Source: Tateyamaria sp. syn59 (GTDB taxonomy: Bacteria > Pseudomonadota > Alphaproteobacteria > Rhodobacterales > Rhodobacteraceae). From it: 64,000 bases of DNA. The translations under genes and the position numbers were made by a program. This document shows positions 1 through 36,694 of this stretch, one piece after another. The notes under the pieces are model-generated. The model was not told where the DNA came from. It did no database searches and saw only the letters and a program-made list of their open reading frames with translations. The stretch's first letter is position 1. Every line of letters begins with the position of its first letter. The stretch spans positions 1-64,000 of the forward strand of contig NZ_VCBA01000012.1 in NCBI RefSeq assembly GCF_007995245.1, given 5' to 3'.

Positions 1-387
1 ACCACGTCCTTTATCGGCCAACTCTCCGAAGCACTCGAAGATCTTTCCCGCTTCAACGGACTTGTCCCCGCGGGGACAATGACGCTCCCCAAATCCTTCC
101 TCGACCTCCGCTTCCTGCTCACCCGGTTCGAGCCGGGCAATGACCTGCACCGCGCCATGCAAGGCGCCTTCCAAAAAGTCTTCGGTGACCGCGTCTGCGA
201 ACACCCCATCGAAATGACCCGCGCCGTCGAACAATCCGGGCGATTCCTCAGCAGCATCTACGAAATAGATTATCGAGATATGACCCGCGAAACCTGGCGC
301 CGCGCCCGCGCGTCCTTCGATCGGGCCTACGAAGAATTCAAAACAAATCTGGGCGAAGCCTGGGACAAACTGGAGGATGAGGCATGA
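1..387 (+). CDS. parA: ParA/RepA-family partition ATPase, C-terminal fragment
   Basis: The reading frame is open from base 1, so the gene starts outside the window; 128 C-terminal residues are visible. The end, with the stretch YEIDYRDMTRETWRRAR followed by a charged helix, resembles the C-terminus of alphaproteobacterial plasmid ParA/RepA ATPases, which segregate low-copy replicons together with ParB. The Walker motifs are upstream and not visible. The stop overlaps the ParB start by 4 bases (ATGA), typical of a coupled parAB operon. Residues LVPAGT are encoded by a copy of the 16-bp palindrome described below (63-78). The assignment rests on C-terminal resemblance plus the ParB neighbour. 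Confidence 0.75.
   Translation, partial: TTSFIGQLSEALEDLSRFNGLVPAGTMTLPKSFLDLRFLLTRFEPGNDLHRAMQGAFQKVFGDRVCEHPIEMTRAVEQSGRFLSSIYEIDYRDMTRETWRRARASFDRAYEEFKTNLGEAWDKLEDEA
63..78. repeat. 16-bp palindrome TGTCCCCGCGGGGACA, copy 1
   Basis: Exact copy, extended to an 18-bp perfect palindrome at 62-79. It lies inside the parA coding sequence and encodes VPAGT. It is the first of ten copies; candidate ParB-binding (parS-like) site or a protein-coding palindromic repeat. Confidence 0.85.
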
Positions 388-1439
388 GCAAGCGCCGCGT
401 ATTCGACATCGACTTCGAACCCGACGCGGGTCCCGGGCCGGAAACAGAACAGGCGCCTGCCCCCGAGACCCGACGAGGTCCCATGGCGGCGGCCATCTCG
501 GAAAATGCCGATGCGCTCACCGAACGCCAATCGGCCGAGGCGGAAATTCGTGCCGAAAACGACCGGCTCGCCCACGAATATGTGTCTCTAAAAAGGGATG
601 GTGCCATCGTTGCCCGCGTTCCCCTCGGGGACGTCGCCATGCGGAAACTCACCCGCGACCGCAGCACCAATCGCGACCCGGACCTTGAAGAACTCAAGAC
701 CTCGATCCGCGATCTGGGCCTGTCCAACCCGATCCAGGTCGAAGACACCGGCGACGGCTACGAACTCATCCAGGGCTTCCGCCGCCTCAGCGCCTACAAA
801 TCCCTGCTCAAGGAAACCGGCGACGAGCGTTACGCCACCATCCCCGCCGTGCTCGTGGCCAAGGGCGAGGCTCTGGAAAAGCTCTATCGCCGCATGGTCG
901 ACGAAAACATGGTCCGGCGCGACATCTCCTTTGCCGAGATGGGTCAACTCGCCGCCAGTTACGCCCGCCAGATGGACCTCGAAGTCAACGACGCCATCGC
1001 CGTTCTCTTCGCCTCCGCCGGACGGCAAAAGCGTAACTACATAGGCAATTTCAGTCTCTTGATGGACAAGCTCGGCCATCTGCTCCAATACCCCGAAGCC
1101 ATCCCGCGCGCCCTCGGCCTGAAGCTGGTCAAAACGCTCGAAGACCAACCCCGCGCCGCCCAGCACCTGAGCGCCCTACTTGAGCATCAAAAGCCCAACG
1201 ACGCCGTTGCCGAACTCGCCGTCCTGAACAAGGTCGTCGCCCCTAAACCGGTCGGTGAACAGGCCGCACCTTCCACGTCCTCCAAGACCACCATCAAGCT
1301 CAACCGCAAGTCCGGCGCGGCGAAGGTCATCGGCTCGAAAGGCAAGATCGAACTCCAAATGAACCGCGACTTCGGCGCCGTCGATCCACGCAAACTGGAA
1401 GCTGCCGTGCGTGCCTTGCTGGACCAACTCGACCTCTGA
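384..1439 (+). CDS. parB: ParB-type plasmid partition protein
   Basis: This 351-residue protein has the ParB layout: a charged, disordered N-terminus (about 1-65), a ParB/Sulfiredoxin-like domain with ELKTSIRDLGLSNPIQV and the box ELIQGFRRLSAYKSL (about 105-150), then a central helical DNA-binding domain (RDISFAEMGQLAASYA) and a C-terminal dimerisation segment. It would bind centromere sites and, with ParA, segregate the replicon. It overlaps parA by 4 bases. A terminator and two palindrome copies follow it immediately. Its presence next to bchO is the main evidence that the photosynthesis genes sit on a plasmid or chromid; no replicase gene is in view, so the plasmid type cannot be named. 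Confidence 0.85.
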   Translation: MSKRRVFDIDFEPDAGPGPETEQAPAPETRRGPMAAAISENADALTERQSAEAEIRAENDRLAHEYVSLKRDGAIVARVPLGDVAMRKLTRDRSTNRDPDLEELKTSIRDLGLSNPIQVEDTGDGYELIQGFRRLSAYKSLLKETGDERYATIPAVLVAKGEALEKLYRRMVDENMVRRDISFAEMGQLAASYARQMDLEVNDAIAVLFASAGRQKRNYIGNFSLLMDKLGHLLQYPEAIPRALGLKLVKTLEDQPRAAQHLSALLEHQKPNDAVAELAVLNKVVAPKPVGEQAAPSTSSKTTIKLNRKSGAAKVIGSKGKIELQMNRDFGAVDPRKLEAAVRALLDQLDL

Positions 1440-1448
1440 ATTCTGGTC

Positions 1449-1464
1449 TGTCCCCGCGGGGACA
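1449..1464. repeat. 16-bp palindrome, copy 2
   Basis: Exact copy of TGTCCCCGCGGGGACA ten bases after the parB stop, on one side of the terminator at 1471-1498. Confidence 0.85.
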
Positions 1465-1470
1465 AACAAG

Positions 1471-1498
1471 AAAAGCCCGCCAATCCGGCGGGCTTTTT
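1471..1498. terminator. Rho-independent terminator, bidirectional, parB/bchO
   Basis: A GC-rich stem (AAAAGCCCGCC / GGCGGGCTTTTT with a 5-base loop) with A and T tracts on either side sits between the convergent ends of parB and bchO. It can serve both directions. Copies of the 16-bp palindrome flank it on each side. Confidence 0.85.
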
Positions 1499-1511
1499 CG
1501 TGTCGCAAACC

Positions 1512-1533
1512 GTTTGTCCCCGCGGGGACAAAC
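1512..1533. repeat. 16-bp palindrome, copy 3 (22-bp perfect palindrome)
   Basis: Core copy at 1515-1530; symmetry extends three bases on each side, making this the longest perfect palindrome of the family. Intergenic, between the terminator and the bchO stop. Confidence 0.85.
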
Positions 1534-1544
1534 CATCTTTCACA

Positions 1545-2411
1545 CTACTGTCTCTGCAGAATATCCCGGATCAGCGCGGCAGTTTCTGCCGGCTGCTCCT
1601 CATGCGCTAGGTGTCCCAGACCCGGCAGTTGATGCACCTGCGCGCTAGTTAATAGCGCAGCAGCTTTGACGGACACATCCGGGCGCACCGTCTTGTCCCT
1701 GTCCCCAATGATGAAGTGCATCCGCGACGGATGATCCCCCAGCCGCTTAAGCAGCGGGTTCAACTGCCATTGCGCCATCATCAAAAGCGTGCCGTCGACG
1801 TGGTTTCGATCGGCTACAAGGCGGCGGTACAGGTCCAGACCCTCGGCGTCCAGCTGCGATCCCGACGCGCTGATCAGCGCCTTGATCCGGTCCGGTTTTG
1901 AAGACGTTCCTGAGAAAAGCGCAGCAGTAAATGGAACCGCCGCGAGAGCTTTCGCCATTGCCGGAAACATCATCCCAGCGAGACCCTTGAACGGCTCCAA
2001 GGCTGCATTGATTCCGATCACGACAGGGGCCTGTCCCCGCGGGGACAGATCACCTTCGGCGAGCCTGAGCGACACCGCGCCGCCCGCCGAATGGCCGATG
2101 ATCGCTGCGGGGGTCCATCCTTCGTGCGCGCACAGCTTGGCGATGTCCTGCGCCATGGCGTCCAGCCCACAGCGATGCCGTGCGCCCAGTTGGGTGAAGC
2201 CGTGGCCGGGCAGGTCGAGGGCGACGACGTGGAAGTCTTTCGCGAGTTGGGGGATCACGTCGCGGTAGCTGTGCGATGAGGCGCCTGCGCCATGCAGCAA
2301 CAGCAGGGTCTCACCCCGTCCCGCTTCCTGGATGTGCCAACGGTGGACGGGCCCCTGTCCCCGCCGGGACAGGTGGGCGTTTGGCCAGGTGTCGATCTGT
2401 GCCCAGTCCAT
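1545..2411 (-). CDS. bchO: BchO, alpha/beta hydrolase of magnesium-chelatase locus
   Basis: A 288-residue alpha/beta hydrolase with LLLLHGAGASSHS (oxyanion region, about 36-48), the nucleophile elbow GHSAGG (Ser108) and a C-terminal GLGHLAHEE carrying the catalytic His. Its place as the last gene after bchI-bchD identifies it as BchO, which accompanies Mg-chelatase in purple bacteria; its substrate is not established. It begins 3 bases after the bchD stop. Two palindrome copies lie in frame: the one at 2356-2371, with one mismatch, encodes part of LSRRGQ (residues 14-19) and the one at 2032-2047 encodes part of LSPRGQ (122-127). Both fall outside the recognisable catalytic motifs. Confidence 0.9.
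   Translation of the reverse strand: MDWAQIDTWPNAHLSRRGQGPVHRWHIQEAGRGETLLLLHGAGASSHSYRDVIPQLAKDFHVVALDLPGHGFTQLGARHRCGLDAMAQDIAKLCAHEGWTPAAIIGHSAGGAVSLRLAEGDLSPRGQAPVVIGINAALEPFKGLAGMMFPAMAKALAAVPFTAALFSGTSSKPDRIKALISASGSQLDAEGLDLYRRLVADRNHVDGTLLMMAQWQLNPLLKRLGDHPSRMHFIIGDRDKTVRPDVSVKAAALLTSAQVHQLPGLGHLAHEEQPAETAALIRDILQRQ
2032..2047. repeat. 16-bp palindrome, copy 4
   Basis: Exact copy; perfect palindrome extends to 18 bp (2031-2048). Inside bchO, encoding SPRGQ in the bchO frame. Confidence 0.85.
2356..2371. repeat. 16-bp palindrome, copy 5 (one mismatch)
   Basis: TGTCCCCGCCGGGACA, differing from the core at position 2365 (C for G). Inside the 5' part of bchO. Confidence 0.75.
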
Positions 2412-2414
2412 TGT

Positions 2415-4058
2415 TCAGACATCCAGCGCTGAGGTCACGGCTCCACTCAGACGCTTTGCATCGGCACGAGGCAAGGGGACGTAAGGCGCGTCCAGAGCGC
2501 GGCTGAGGTCCTGCAGCGCACGTTGCGGGCGGTTGGACATGTCGATGACCAGAGCGGCTATGCCGGCGGCGCGGATGGCGGTGGCCATGGCTGTCGCATC
2601 CTCAGCCGCCTGAGCGCGGTTGGCGCTGCTATCGAGGGCGATGTTGCTGCGCCCGTCGGTGATCAGGATGATTGTGGGAGTAAGCCCTTTGGCGCCGCTT
2701 TGCTGTGCGAGGATCAGGGCGTGCTGGAGGCCCGAGGCGAGCGGTGTGCCGCCACCGCCGGGCAGGGCGGAGAGGCGCCGTTTGGTTTGGACGAGTGAGC
2801 GGGTTGGCGGCAGGAGCGTTTCGGCTGCGGTGCCGCGGAAGGCGATGAGGGCGACGTGGTCTCGGCTGGCGTAGGCGTCTGCGAGCAGGAGTTCGATAGC
2901 GCCCTTGGCCTCGTTCAGGCGGGACATCGCGGCGGAGCCGGAGGCGTCGACGGCGAAGATTAGGAGGCGGTCGGATTGTTCCGCGTAGCGCTTGAGTCGG
3001 ATGTCGGACGGGCGGATGAGAAGGCCTTTGCGATCCGGCTGCTGCTGCCGACGTAGAGGCTGCCACGGGGCGGCGGCGCGGAGGGTTGAGATGAGGTCGA
3101 TGCGAGACGTGCCGTCTAGGCGTCCGGGACGGGCGGGCAGGGGGCGTCCACGGCGGTTGGAAATGCGTTTTTTTCCCGCACCTGCGTCGCCGGATTTTCG
3201 GGTTGTCCCCGCGGGGACAAGTCCGTTCAGGAGGTCCGGAGGCAGGGCGGATTTGACGGCTTCGACCAGTATTTCGGCGTCTGGGATCGTGTCGCTTTCC
3301 GATGTGTCCCCGCGGGGACAACCATCATCTTCCGGTGGGGGAGGGGGGCTTTCTGGCTCCTCGATTTCCTCGGGAATGATCGTGGCGCGGTGGGGGTAGA
3401 CGAGGGTCGCGGCGATCTCGAGGTCGGTGTCGGTGAGGTGGTCTCGGCCCATGAGTTCGGCATGCGCGCGGGCGGTGCGGAGGGCGAGTGTTGGGGCGCG
3501 GAGGGTGGTGATGCCGAAGCGGGCGGCGAGGAGGGTAAGTTGGGTGATTGCGTCGCCGGTTTCGATACGTGTCCCCGCGGGGACAGATTGGGTTGTCCCC
3601 GCGGGGACAAGTGCGTTTCGGCCCTGTGGTTCGAGGTGGAAGGCGCAGCGGTCGGCGAGGGGGTCGGGGGTGCGTTCGTCGGGTTCTATGCCTTCGTCGA
3701 GAAGCAAAAAACCCTGTGTTAGAGACTGATCTGCGGCATGAGCGAGTTTGGCAGCGAGTGCTGGGGGGCAGCGTTCGGCCATGGGGATTTGGGCGATGAC
3801 TGGATCATTGAAAAATGATTTATTTTCAATAAGTTGTGCGGAGCGGAGTGTTGCGGTGAGGTCGATGCCGCCGAAGAGTTGGTCGTCGGGGATGGTTATT
3901 GGGAGTTTTCGGATGGGGAGGGCAGGGGTGAAGCCTGCGAGCAAGGCGTCGCGGTCGGGGCTGGCGCGCATGCGGATGACGGCGCCGCCGAGGCCCTGGG
4001 GGTCGAGGGCCAGGAGTTTGAGGGCGAGGGCCGCGTTATGCCAGGTTTCTGCGGTCAT
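2415..4058 (-). CDS. bchD: Magnesium chelatase subunit D
   Basis: A 547-residue BchD, the AAA+/von Willebrand subunit that forms a double ring with BchI and drives Mg insertion into protoporphyrin IX by BchH. The N-terminal part is the degenerate AAA-like domain (1-225), followed by an acidic and proline-rich linker (about 228-260) and a C-terminal VWA domain beginning LLIFAVDASGSAAM, whose MIDAS signature DASGS is at 371-375. The linker and nearby loops contain four copies of the 16-bp palindrome, giving VPAGT at 151-155, 159-163 and 281-285 and CPRGD at 247-251. The gene is downstream of bchI on the same strand, across a 142-bp gap with hairpin repeats. Confidence 0.95.
   Translation of the reverse strand: MTAETWHNAALALKLLALDPQGLGGAVIRMRASPDRDALLAGFTPALPIRKLPITIPDDQLFGGIDLTATLRSAQLIENKSFFNDPVIAQIPMAERCPPALAAKLAHAADQSLTQGFLLLDEGIEPDERTPDPLADRCAFHLEPQGRNALVPAGTTQSVPAGTRIETGDAITQLTLLAARFGITTLRAPTLALRTARAHAELMGRDHLTDTDLEIAATLVYPHRATIIPEEIEEPESPPPPPEDDGCPRGDTSESDTIPDAEILVEAVKSALPPDLLNGLVPAGTTRKSGDAGAGKKRISNRRGRPLPARPGRLDGTSRIDLISTLRAAAPWQPLRRQQQPDRKGLLIRPSDIRLKRYAEQSDRLLIFAVDASGSAAMSRLNEAKGAIELLLADAYASRDHVALIAFRGTAAETLLPPTRSLVQTKRRLSALPGGGGTPLASGLQHALILAQQSGAKGLTPTIILITDGRSNIALDSSANRAQAAEDATAMATAIRAAGIAALVIDMSNRPQRALQDLSRALDAPYVPLPRADAKRLSGAVTSALDV
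3204..3219. repeat. 16-bp palindrome, copy 6
   Basis: Exact copy, 18-bp perfect palindrome at 3203-3220, inside bchD, encoding VPAGT (281-285). Confidence 0.85.
3305..3320. repeat. 16-bp palindrome, copy 7
   Basis: Exact copy inside the bchD linker, encoding CPRGD (247-251), so read in a different frame from copies 6, 8 and 9. Confidence 0.85.
3570..3585. repeat. 16-bp palindrome, copy 8
   Basis: Exact copy inside bchD, starting 24 bases before copy 9; encodes VPAGT (159-163). Confidence 0.85.
3594..3609. repeat. 16-bp palindrome, copy 9
   Basis: Exact copy, 18-bp perfect palindrome at 3593-3610, inside bchD, encoding VPAGT (151-155). Confidence 0.85.
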
Positions 4059-35141: not shown

Positions 35142-36694
35142 GTGATGGCCTCCGGTAAGGTGGGAGCGGCATCGATCAGTTGGCGGGTGTAGGGGTGTTG
35201 TGCCGCGCCAAAAACGGCTTCCGTCTCGCCTTGTTCCACGATCCTGCCGCGCTGCATCACCATCACGCGGTCGGTGATCGTGCGAACCACGCTCAGGTCG
35301 TGAGATATAAAGAGATAGGTCAGGTCGTATTGGCGACACAGATCGGCGATCAGGTCGAGGATTTGCGCGCGCACCGACACGTCGAGCGCACTCACCGCCT
35401 CGTCAAAGATCACCAGTTCTGGCCGGATGATCAGCGCGCGCGCAATGGCGAGCCGTTGGCGCTGCCCACCGGAGAATTGGTGCGGGTACTTCTGCGCATC
35501 TTCGGGCGACAAGCCGACATCGTTGAGGGCGGCTGCGATGCGCGCATCACGATCCTTGGGCGGCGTATCCAGCAGGTGGAAGGGTTCGGAAATCAGCCGG
35601 GCCACCAGGTGACGAGGGTTGAAACTGCCGTAGGGATCCTGAAACACAACCTGCATCTTGCGGCGCACGGATGAGTCGGTGACGGGTGTGCCGTCCAGGG
35701 TGATGGAGCCGCCCTGCACCGGCTCCAGCCCGAGGATGGCGCGCGTCAGGGTGGACTTGCCGCAGCCGCTTTCGCCCACCAGACCGACCCGCTCGCCGCG
35801 CCGGATGTCAAAGCTGACGTGATCCACCGCCCGATGTGTCCCCGCGGGGGCAAACAGGCGCGTGCGGGGCAGGGTGTAGTCGCGCACCACATTCTTGACC
35901 TGCAACAGCGGTGTGTCTTTGTTACTGTCTGGCAGATCGACGCGGTGGTTGGAGGCTGCGAGCAGGGCTTGGGTGTAGGGGTGTTTTGGGGCCGCCAGTA
36001 AGGCGGGCGTGTCGCCCGCCTCGACGACCTTGCCGCCGCGCATGACGGTGATCCGATCCGCTATCTCGGCGACGACGGCGAGGTCGTGGGTGATCATCAG
36101 AAGGCCCATGCCATCCTCGGCGGCGAGTTGTTTGAGCAGATCGAGGATTTGCGCTTGGGTGGTGACATCCAGCGCAGTTGTCGGCTCGTCCGCGATCAGC
36201 AGCTTTGGCCCACAGGCGATTGCGATAGCGATGACAACCCGCTGGCGCTGGCCACCGGACAGTTCGTGCGGGTAGCGGGTGAGGGGGATCGCTTGCAGGC
36301 CAACACGGTCCAGCACGTCACGTGCTCGTTTCAGCGAGTCGAGGTCCGGGCGGTGTAGTCTGACGGTTTCAGAGACTTGCGCACCGATGGTCTGCACCGG
36401 ATTCAGCGCAGTCATCGGCTCCTGGAACACCATGCCGACCAGATCGCCGCGTAGAGTGCAGAGCGTCGCCTCGTCCAGCATCAGGAGGTCATGGCCGTCC
36501 AGGGTGATCCGGCCAGTCGCCTCCGCTCCGCTTGGCAGCAGTTGCATGACCGCCAGCGCCGTCATCGACTTGCCCGAGCCGCTTTCACCGGTGACGGCCA
36601 CCACCTCGCCTGCCTCAAGCGTCAGCGATACATCCTGCAGGATAAGCGTGCCCGTGATGGAGAGCGACAGGTTCCGGATGTCGAGCAGGCTCAT
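35138..36694 (-). CDS. Oligopeptide/dipeptide-type ABC transporter, fused double ATPase
   Basis: A 518-residue fusion of two ABC domains (DppD-DppF or GsiA/YejF type). Walker A motifs: GESGSGKS (36-43) and GESGCGKS (307-314); signatures LSGGQRQRV (145-153) and [10 protein letters not shown]; each half has the oligopeptide-binding extension, e.g. [10 protein letters not shown]. It energises uptake through the two permeases upstream. Two repeats lie inside: a one-mismatch copy of the 16-bp palindrome in the interdomain linker (encoding APAGT, 282-286) and a REP-like stem at 36002-36020. Overlaps the permease gene by 4 bases. Confidence 0.92.
35837..35852. repeat. 16-bp palindrome, copy 10 (one mismatch)
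   Basis: TGTCCCCGCGGGGGCA, differing from the core at 35850. It is 32 kb from the other nine copies, inside the linker of the ABC ATPase gene. Confidence 0.7.
36002..36020 (-). repeat. REP-like stem inside the ABC ATPase gene
   Basis: GGCGGGCG-TGT-CGCCCGCC, the reverse complement of the stem after pufC (23896-23914), with the matching TTACT tail on the minus strand. It encodes part of [11 protein letters not shown], a region of normal length for the family, so it either replaced existing codons or is a chance match. Confidence 0.5.

Follow-up and report, generated by a model that had tools for sequence, protein, structure and literature searches.

Predicted plasmid parS palindrome of a Tateyamaria photosynthesis plasmid and a candidate chromosome-wide array of ParB sites

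ParB–parS systems usually form compact centromeres, and the DnaA-like I plasmids of Rhodobacterales (e.g. pRLO149_94) have parA, parB and palindromes close by, like the DNA described here, and in many cases a gene annotated as DnaA N-terminal. The excerpted text of PMC6739100 reports that, with a single exception, the photosynthesis plasmids studied there are DnaA-like I. The RepABC plasmids of Rhodobacteraceae likewise carry short, conserved palindromes that are specific for the partition type and are anchor sites of the partition protein (excerpt of PMC5613091), orphan ParB proteins are ParB homologues that, as here, lie outside parAB operons (excerpt of PMC12704722), and Noc of Firmicutes is, in the part of PMC7383237 available, a ParB-related protein without ParA, described as confined to Firmicutes, whose binding sites (NBS) are likewise scattered over the chromosome and are absent near the terminus (ter). 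The DNA studied here, called the window, is a 64,000-nucleotide stretch of Tateyamaria sp. syn59 (positions 1 to 64,000 of contig NZ_VCBA01000012.1, C12 below), and its subject is a 16-base palindrome, TGTCCCCGCGGGGACA (the 16-mer), that is clustered around parA, parB, bchO and bchD. We consider it rather probable, from sequence comparison, that this palindrome would be both the centromere of a plasmid and a selected, chromosome-wide array of ParB sites read by plasmid ParBs or by ParBs without parA, which points to an additional role along the entire chromosome, acquired by plasmid-type partition proteins in some marine bacteria.

Exact copies of the 16-mer start at 63, 1449, 1515, 2032, 3204, 3305, 3570 and 3594, and copies with one mismatch at 2356 (TGTCCCCGCCGGGACA) and 35837; the recount in the window gave the same positions as the preliminary description of this DNA. 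These are the only ten matches with at most 3 mismatches, compared with a mean of 0.78 and a largest value of 4 in 100 shuffles. Seven of the nine copies in the cluster are genic, one in parA (63), two in bchO (2032 and 2356) and four in bchD (3204, 3305, 3570 and 3594), and the peptide readings VPAGT, SPRGQ and CPRGD are as first described; the intergenic copies at 1449 and 1515 both lie in the gap between parB and bchO. The features are as follows.

1 to 387, plus strand: 3′ end of parA, the 5′ part being at the other end of C12
63 to 78, plus strand: 16-mer inside the 3′ part of parA, exact
384 to 1439, plus strand: parB, 351 amino acids, directly downstream of parA
1449 to 1464, plus strand: 16-mer in the parB–bchO gap, exact here and in pDOK1-4-3 of T. 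omphalii
1515 to 1530, plus strand: 16-mer in the parB–bchO gap, exact here and in pDOK1-4-3 of T. omphalii
1545 to 2411, minus strand: bchO, holding one exact and one one-mismatch copy; annotated homologue known
2032 to 2047, plus strand: 16-mer in bchO (SPRGQ), exact
2356 to 2371, plus strand: one-mismatch copy in bchO, whose centre CGCC recurs in a T. omphalii copy at L016:8352
2415 to 4058, minus strand: bchD, holding four exact copies
3204 to 3219, plus strand: 16-mer in bchD (VPAGT), exact, as are its aligned counterparts in T. omphalii, R. ponti and Thalassococcus
3305 to 3320, plus strand: 16-mer in bchD (CPRGD), common to T. omphalii only among six aligned BchD
3570 to 3585, plus strand: 16-mer in bchD (VPAGT), exact in T. 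omphalii too
3594 to 3609, plus strand: 16-mer in bchD (VPAGT), 24 bases from the 3570 copy, exact in T. omphalii
35837 to 35852, plus strand: isolated one-mismatch copy outside the cluster

C12 is 79,900 bases long and the window begins within parA, the frame of which is open at both ends of the contig, with 129 codons here and 306 codons in L186:14983-15900. Counted separately at the two contig ends, the halves sum to 435 codons with the stop, and the ParA of Tateyamaria omphalii, on which the ParA domains were checked because the window parA is split by the contig ends, has 434 amino acids. Two further exact 16-mers (C12:78847 and 78952) are located just upstream of the parA start at the far end of the contig, and a weak DnaA_N match is present at L186:13812-14495 (E 4.9e-4, under the gathering score, and with no NCBIfam match). 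Because the rest of parA, the DnaA-like gene and these two 16-mers sit at the opposite contig end, the replicon is probably a circle of ~80 kb. Among plasmid records the nearest is pDOK1-4-3, a photosynthesis plasmid of T. omphalii (83.7% identity over the first 6 kb), and all eight exact window sites and both far-end sites are exact in it, with the surrounding alignments ~85% identical. At the position aligned with site 63, the 16-mer is unaltered in R. litoralis, Salipiger, Celeribacter, Leisingera and one Falsirhodobacter, all loci chosen for holding it, and no exact copy stands there in T. pelophila L044, L039 and L091.

ParB loci were located through protein searches of 18 genomes, picked in most cases for having the palindrome. 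An exact 16-mer was found within ~1.5 kb of parB in 17/17 loci with a ParB identity of 43–97%, compared with 0/13 loci at 31–37%. A ParB of the 16-mer kind was present in all 17 searched genomes with copies, and the sole searched genome without copies, G240, had no such ParB at E 1e-10. The window ParB itself matches Pfam ParB_N just over the gathering score (E 6.4e-6) and NCBIfam parB_part under the curated cut-off (E 1.1e-8). Among the matches listed, 80 stretches were used (the best 80 of at least 116), and 21 plasmid regions (19 plus L016 and L017) were picked along the range of ParB identity; ten of these hold the exact 16-mer and nine a gene annotated as DnaA N-terminal. Other palindromes of the same build accompany the more distant ParBs: two have GTTCCCC arms, three have CTTCCCC arms, and CTTTTCC and CTTATCC arms occur once each, and the three most distant plasmid ParBs have GTTACC or GTAACC arms. 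In a tree of 50 ParBs made by a quick method, the ParBs of CTTCCCC/CTTATCC, GTTCCCC and GTTACC type each form groups, and the palindrome co-varies with ParB type except in pPGA1_262, G001 and G081, which are weighed below. It is thus well supported, as the preliminary description had suggested from the window, that the 16-mer would be the parS of a DnaA-like plasmid, clustered at parAB in several genera. Two Leisingera plasmids (L406 and L420) had 15 and 11 exact 16-mers in ~4 kb around parAB, above the other plasmid regions, and a metagenome bin of Dysgonamonadaceae, far outside Rhodobacterales, had three exact copies in 142 bases (L048:350-491).

In protein alignments of six BchD and six BchO, the site at BchO residue 122 was common to this genome, T. 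omphalii, R. ponti and Thalassococcus and was absent from R. litoralis and Actibacterium, the BchD 280 site (3204 in the window) corresponded to sites at 280, 285 and 273 in T. omphalii, R. ponti and Thalassococcus, and the BchD 247 site was shared by T. omphalii only. These matching places, exact in pDOK1-4-3, suggest that the centromere of this plasmid type would be partly encoded within bchO and bchD, and it may fairly be inferred that ParB covers both genes. A palindromic repeat, mobile or amplified, of the coding kind or like repetitive extragenic palindromes and dense near parAB by chance, would also account for many dispersed copies, some of them in close pairs 24–33 bases apart. Such an origin is very improbable, since BchO 122 and BchD 280 were gap-free in the alignments across four genera with and without the site (Actibacterium BchO excepted), and no consistent length gain was seen at the sites when bchD and bchO were aligned with relatives. 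Copies standing as insertions absent from relatives were not found in the part of the copies tested, and alignment gaps lie close to the remaining BchD sites.

Searching the whole genome gave 65 exact 16-mers, 55 of them outside C12. The confinement to this replicon that had been expected of a parS therefore failed, and a plasmid-only parS was rejected. The preliminary description had also held that a palindrome equally common on the chromosome would speak against parS; the 16-mer proved to be widespread off the replicon, but at ~1 per 80 kb elsewhere in the genome compared with 8 exact copies in 3.6 kb at the window cluster, an intermediate outcome by that criterion. With at most one mismatch there were 81 copies versus 0 for the reversed control, and with at most three there were 111 (65 exact, 16 with one mismatch and 30 with two or three) versus 35, so the set is nearly all exact, and the lack of a family of decayed copies is a further point against a mobile repeat. 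Using genes called with a purpose-made gene caller, 32 of the 55 copies off C12 were intergenic, although 88.6% of the sampled DNA was coding; 20 lay in tandem, 9 in convergent and 3 in divergent gaps, the gap DNA on offer being 9.7 kb divergent and 3.9 kb convergent. The 23 genic copies read as VPAGT (16), SPRGQ (5) or CPRGD (2), and the flanks of the sites are enriched for RATC-like letters.

From their size, their synteny with Tateyamaria sp. 123-G (G400) and the canonical parS on C5, most large contigs appear to be chromosomal, and C13, C15 and C16, with 5 of the 55 copies, may be non-chromosomal. On contigs C1–C7, with neighbours less than 3 kb apart dropped, the site spacing was more even than random (coefficient of variation 0.59 versus 0.85, P 0.0022). 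The usual chromosomal parS was kept in all seven genomes tested, in 2–4 copies close together, and the array thus exists in addition to an ordinary partition site. No other frequent palindrome in the sampled DNA, which is mostly centred on sites, was as common as the 16-mer; another repeated palindrome, GCGGATCnnGATCCGC, occurred three times here (L163, L184 and L188) and six times in G400 within that DNA. Sequences resembling dif beside two sites (L181 and L182) failed the dif patterns used. The stem letters themselves are nearly fixed, which makes an RNA hairpin or terminator unlikely.

Conservation of the scattered sites was measured against G400 (~81% DNA identity), excluding the ten C12 copies. 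Of 34 testable sites, 28 were exact and 6 changed, compared with 2876/35396 (8%) of ordinary 16-mers in the same alignments; 21 of the 55 sites were without G400 data, and the 28/34 leans high because the G400 stretches were first centred on its own sites, the remainder being taken by synteny. These values argue that the scattered chromosomal sites are probably kept by selection. Moreover, copies that are exact or absent, at positions kept between species while the flanks diverge, told against the coding mobile repeat that had been offered as the alternative to parS. The genic site at L173:4001 aligns gap-free to a non-site in G400, which again differs from what an insertion would leave, and the site therefore changes residues of the protein, which we take to be an S-formylglutathione hydrolase.

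Exact 16-mers were present in 34 of 394 genomes of the family, this one included. High-copy genomes were nine other Tateyamaria (22–73 copies), Actibacterium sp. 188UL27-1 (79) and Pseudorhodobacter sp. PARRP1 (62), and G240, which belongs to the same genus as this genome in GTDB, had 0. A further 19 genomes hold 2 to 6 copies, and among the 15 for which all places were listed, 13 had them within one stretch of <4 kb and two (G087 and G139) on several contigs. With few copies on several contigs, G001, G081 and G087 perhaps carry early or decaying arrays.

A sister palindrome of 17 bases, TGTCCCACGCTGGGACA (the 17-mer), occupies two of the six changed sites of G400 (L285 and L287) and also stands at L289 and, with a single outer letter changed, at L284, both of them facing sites of this genome. 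In the 20 genomes searched, its 15-base core was found 20 times in G240, 13 times in G400, 9 times in ANG-S1, 8 times in T. omphalii DP5N21-5 and once each in strain 4-55 (G395) and in this genome, where C and G flank it, and was missing from the 14 others; the core with C and G outside was kept at one place in three genomes including this one (L324, L329 and L344). All of the 30 sampled 17-mer loci, which are not all independent, are intergenic, and none of the 25 with both neighbours called lies between divergent genes. Grouping 198 sites by their flanks gave 100 positions, 26 of them with the full 17-mer, and 7 of these 26 carry the 16-mer in another species; further pairs are visible, e.g. 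L190/L333 and L143/L284. The 16- and 17-base sites are thus exchanged for one another between species. In G400 there was a weak signal of 17-mers lying apart from 16-mers (median P 0.066, minimum P 0.004).

An intact ParB-like protein of 280–281 amino acids without adjoining parA (the orphan ParB), 71–100% identical to that of ANG-S1, was found in all four genomes rich in 17-mers and in no other genome searched. In strain 4-55 the orphan gene is broken into two frames, and nothing above 44% was found in the remaining searched genomes apart from a relative in PARRP1. The split of 4/4 versus 0/16 has a chance of 1 in 4845 if the genomes are independent, and they are related. A 17-mer lies ~2.3–3.5 kb from the orphan gene in ANG-S1, G400 and G240. 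The orphan sits in another ParB clade than the ParBs of the 16-mer, and its clade has both odd palindromes (C18 of this genome, G081, G266 and Leisingera ANG1) and even ones (C10 of T. omphalii and others), so that the length of the palindrome is no evidence for linking the 17-mer with the orphan. Another chromosomal protein could be imagined to bind the scattered sites, the plasmid ParB merely sharing its specificity; this mixture of odd and even palindromes would fit such a protein, and the only other ParB homologues in this genome (E 0.01) are 32–36% identical. We give this idea little credence, because the numbers of both palindromes track particular ParB-family genes in the searched genomes.

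ParBs without a parA also accompany two of the arrays of 16-mers. In Actibacterium the ParB gene adjoins bchO with no parA beside it, and the PARRP1 gene for a ParB of this kind (L321:3748-8536) is divergent from a full repABC-like cassette; by gene order these two and the Tateyamaria orphan are without parA, and the window parB has it. Similarity of both proteins to the window ParB begins only at residue 72 or 74, and an N-terminal block that is kept in seven other aligned ParBs, and that may be the ParA-binding part, is wholly or largely missing from them. In the ten Tateyamaria loci examined, parA adjoins parB. This last arrangement, together with the identical 16-mer on both replicons, would be expected if the plasmid were carried or positioned by the chromosome through the chromosomal copies, with ParB bridging both sets of sites. 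The arrays of Actibacterium and PARRP1, whose ParB has no parA of its own, and the 17-mers of G240 with their orphan make plasmid carriage unlikely as the general reason; and T. pelophila has the ParB with only 2 copies, so the array is dispensable to the plasmid. On the whole we regard this explanation as unlikely.

ParB relatives without parA and scattered, often intergenic sites could also indicate a true nucleoid occlusion, in which a ParB-type protein keeps the division ring off the nucleoid as Noc does, and the sites here are similar in number to Noc sites. From noisy GC skew and synteny, ter was inferred near the end of C4 and the start of C2 of G400, and the sites there are at least as dense as elsewhere, unlike those of Noc; the system is thus Noc-like in layout only. 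In addition, the Noc model TIGR04285, with a cut-off of 315 bits, gave 30.8, 42.3, 36.3 and 30.8 bits for four ParB-type proteins and no match for a fifth, and the orphan begins at the ParB core with no N-terminal extension seen. Nucleoid occlusion in the strict sense is thus improbable.

The reading that we prefer, a plasmid centromere together with a selected chromosomal array, would work as follows. TGTCCCCGCGGGGACA is the predicted binding site of the ParB at 384-1439, encoded on a DnaA-like photosynthesis plasmid, and it would form a distributed plasmid centromere from upstream of parA through parA, bchO and bchD, with plasmid partition performed by ParA and ParB. About 50 scattered sites of the same sequence would form a second array on the chromosome, probably loaded by the plasmid ParB in this genome and by the parA-less ParB homologues in Actibacterium and PARRP1, and in some Tateyamaria a different orphan ParB would be paired with the 17-base version of the site. 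The most likely chromosomal job would be to organise or mark the whole nucleoid through ParB clamps at the scattered sites, and this job is probably independent of ParA, because the common factor in the genomes with arrays that were studied is a ParB-family protein matched to the palindrome, in three cases without parA. The binding of the sites by ParB, the takeover of orphan sites by the plasmid ParB and the role in the cell are inferred from sequence comparisons.

Several observations weigh against this reading. The ParB of P. inhibens pPGA1_262 (L405) is 52% identical and is placed among the ParBs of the 16-mer in the tree, and its region has no exact 16-mer and two variants with other centres. 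The ParBs of the 16-mer surround the CTTCCCC/CTTATCC and GTTCCCC groups, and G001 and G081, which have the 16-mer, fall with these, so the fit between palindrome and ParB type is good and not perfect. ParB presence was tested in 18 genomes, compared with 394 for the counts of the 16-mer, and T. pelophila has only its 2 copies despite a ParB of 72% identity. The 34 testable sites were drawn from the 55 with a bias, the floor being 28/55 exact, and in G400 the evenness of spacing was not significant (P 0.14), the site list there being incomplete. The link between the orphan and the 17-mer rests on related genomes, and PARRP1 encodes a protein related to the orphan at 52% identity but lacks 17-mers. 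The ParBs of Actibacterium and PARRP1 have long branches in the tree, and an automated scan flagged a parA next to the PARRP1 ParB, which we discounted, as it is oriented divergently and is the first gene of a separate repABC-like set.

As to how the arrangement arose, we tentatively suggest that the array may have been first read by the orphan through the 17-mer and then, once a photosynthesis plasmid had introduced a ParB of another clade, rewritten site by site, and extended, to the 16-mer of the plasmid, while the orphan decayed or was lost; a plasmid partition protein would thereby have captured a role along the whole chromosome, the ParBs of Actibacterium and PARRP1 would have lost their parA, and the outcome would be a repeatedly evolved Noc-like system outside Firmicutes that includes ter. 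Two different ParB clades accompany chromosome-wide sets of palindromes in these alphaproteobacteria, one set being putatively read by a plasmid protein. The array may tie the photosynthesis plasmid to the chromosome of its host, and the natural switching of sites between species offers strains for studying the chromosomal jobs of partition proteins and the rewriting of site arrays.

ParB–parS and orphan ParBs are known kinds of system. To our knowledge, a plasmid parS that is maintained as an array along the whole chromosome and swapped, position by position, with a palindrome linked to an orphan is new, and we did not find such arrays described in the open-licence literature. The palindromes of RepABC plasmids have another sequence and length and are, in the excerpted text of PMC5613091, reported near the rep operon. 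In contrast to the ParABS of DnaA-like I plasmids, the same palindrome is here also scattered over other contigs; in contrast to known orphan ParBs, those found here are linked to chromosome-wide palindromes, one of which exchanges with a plasmid parS; and in contrast to Noc, there is no gap at the inferred ter, and the candidate reader in this genome is plasmid-borne and accompanied by parA.

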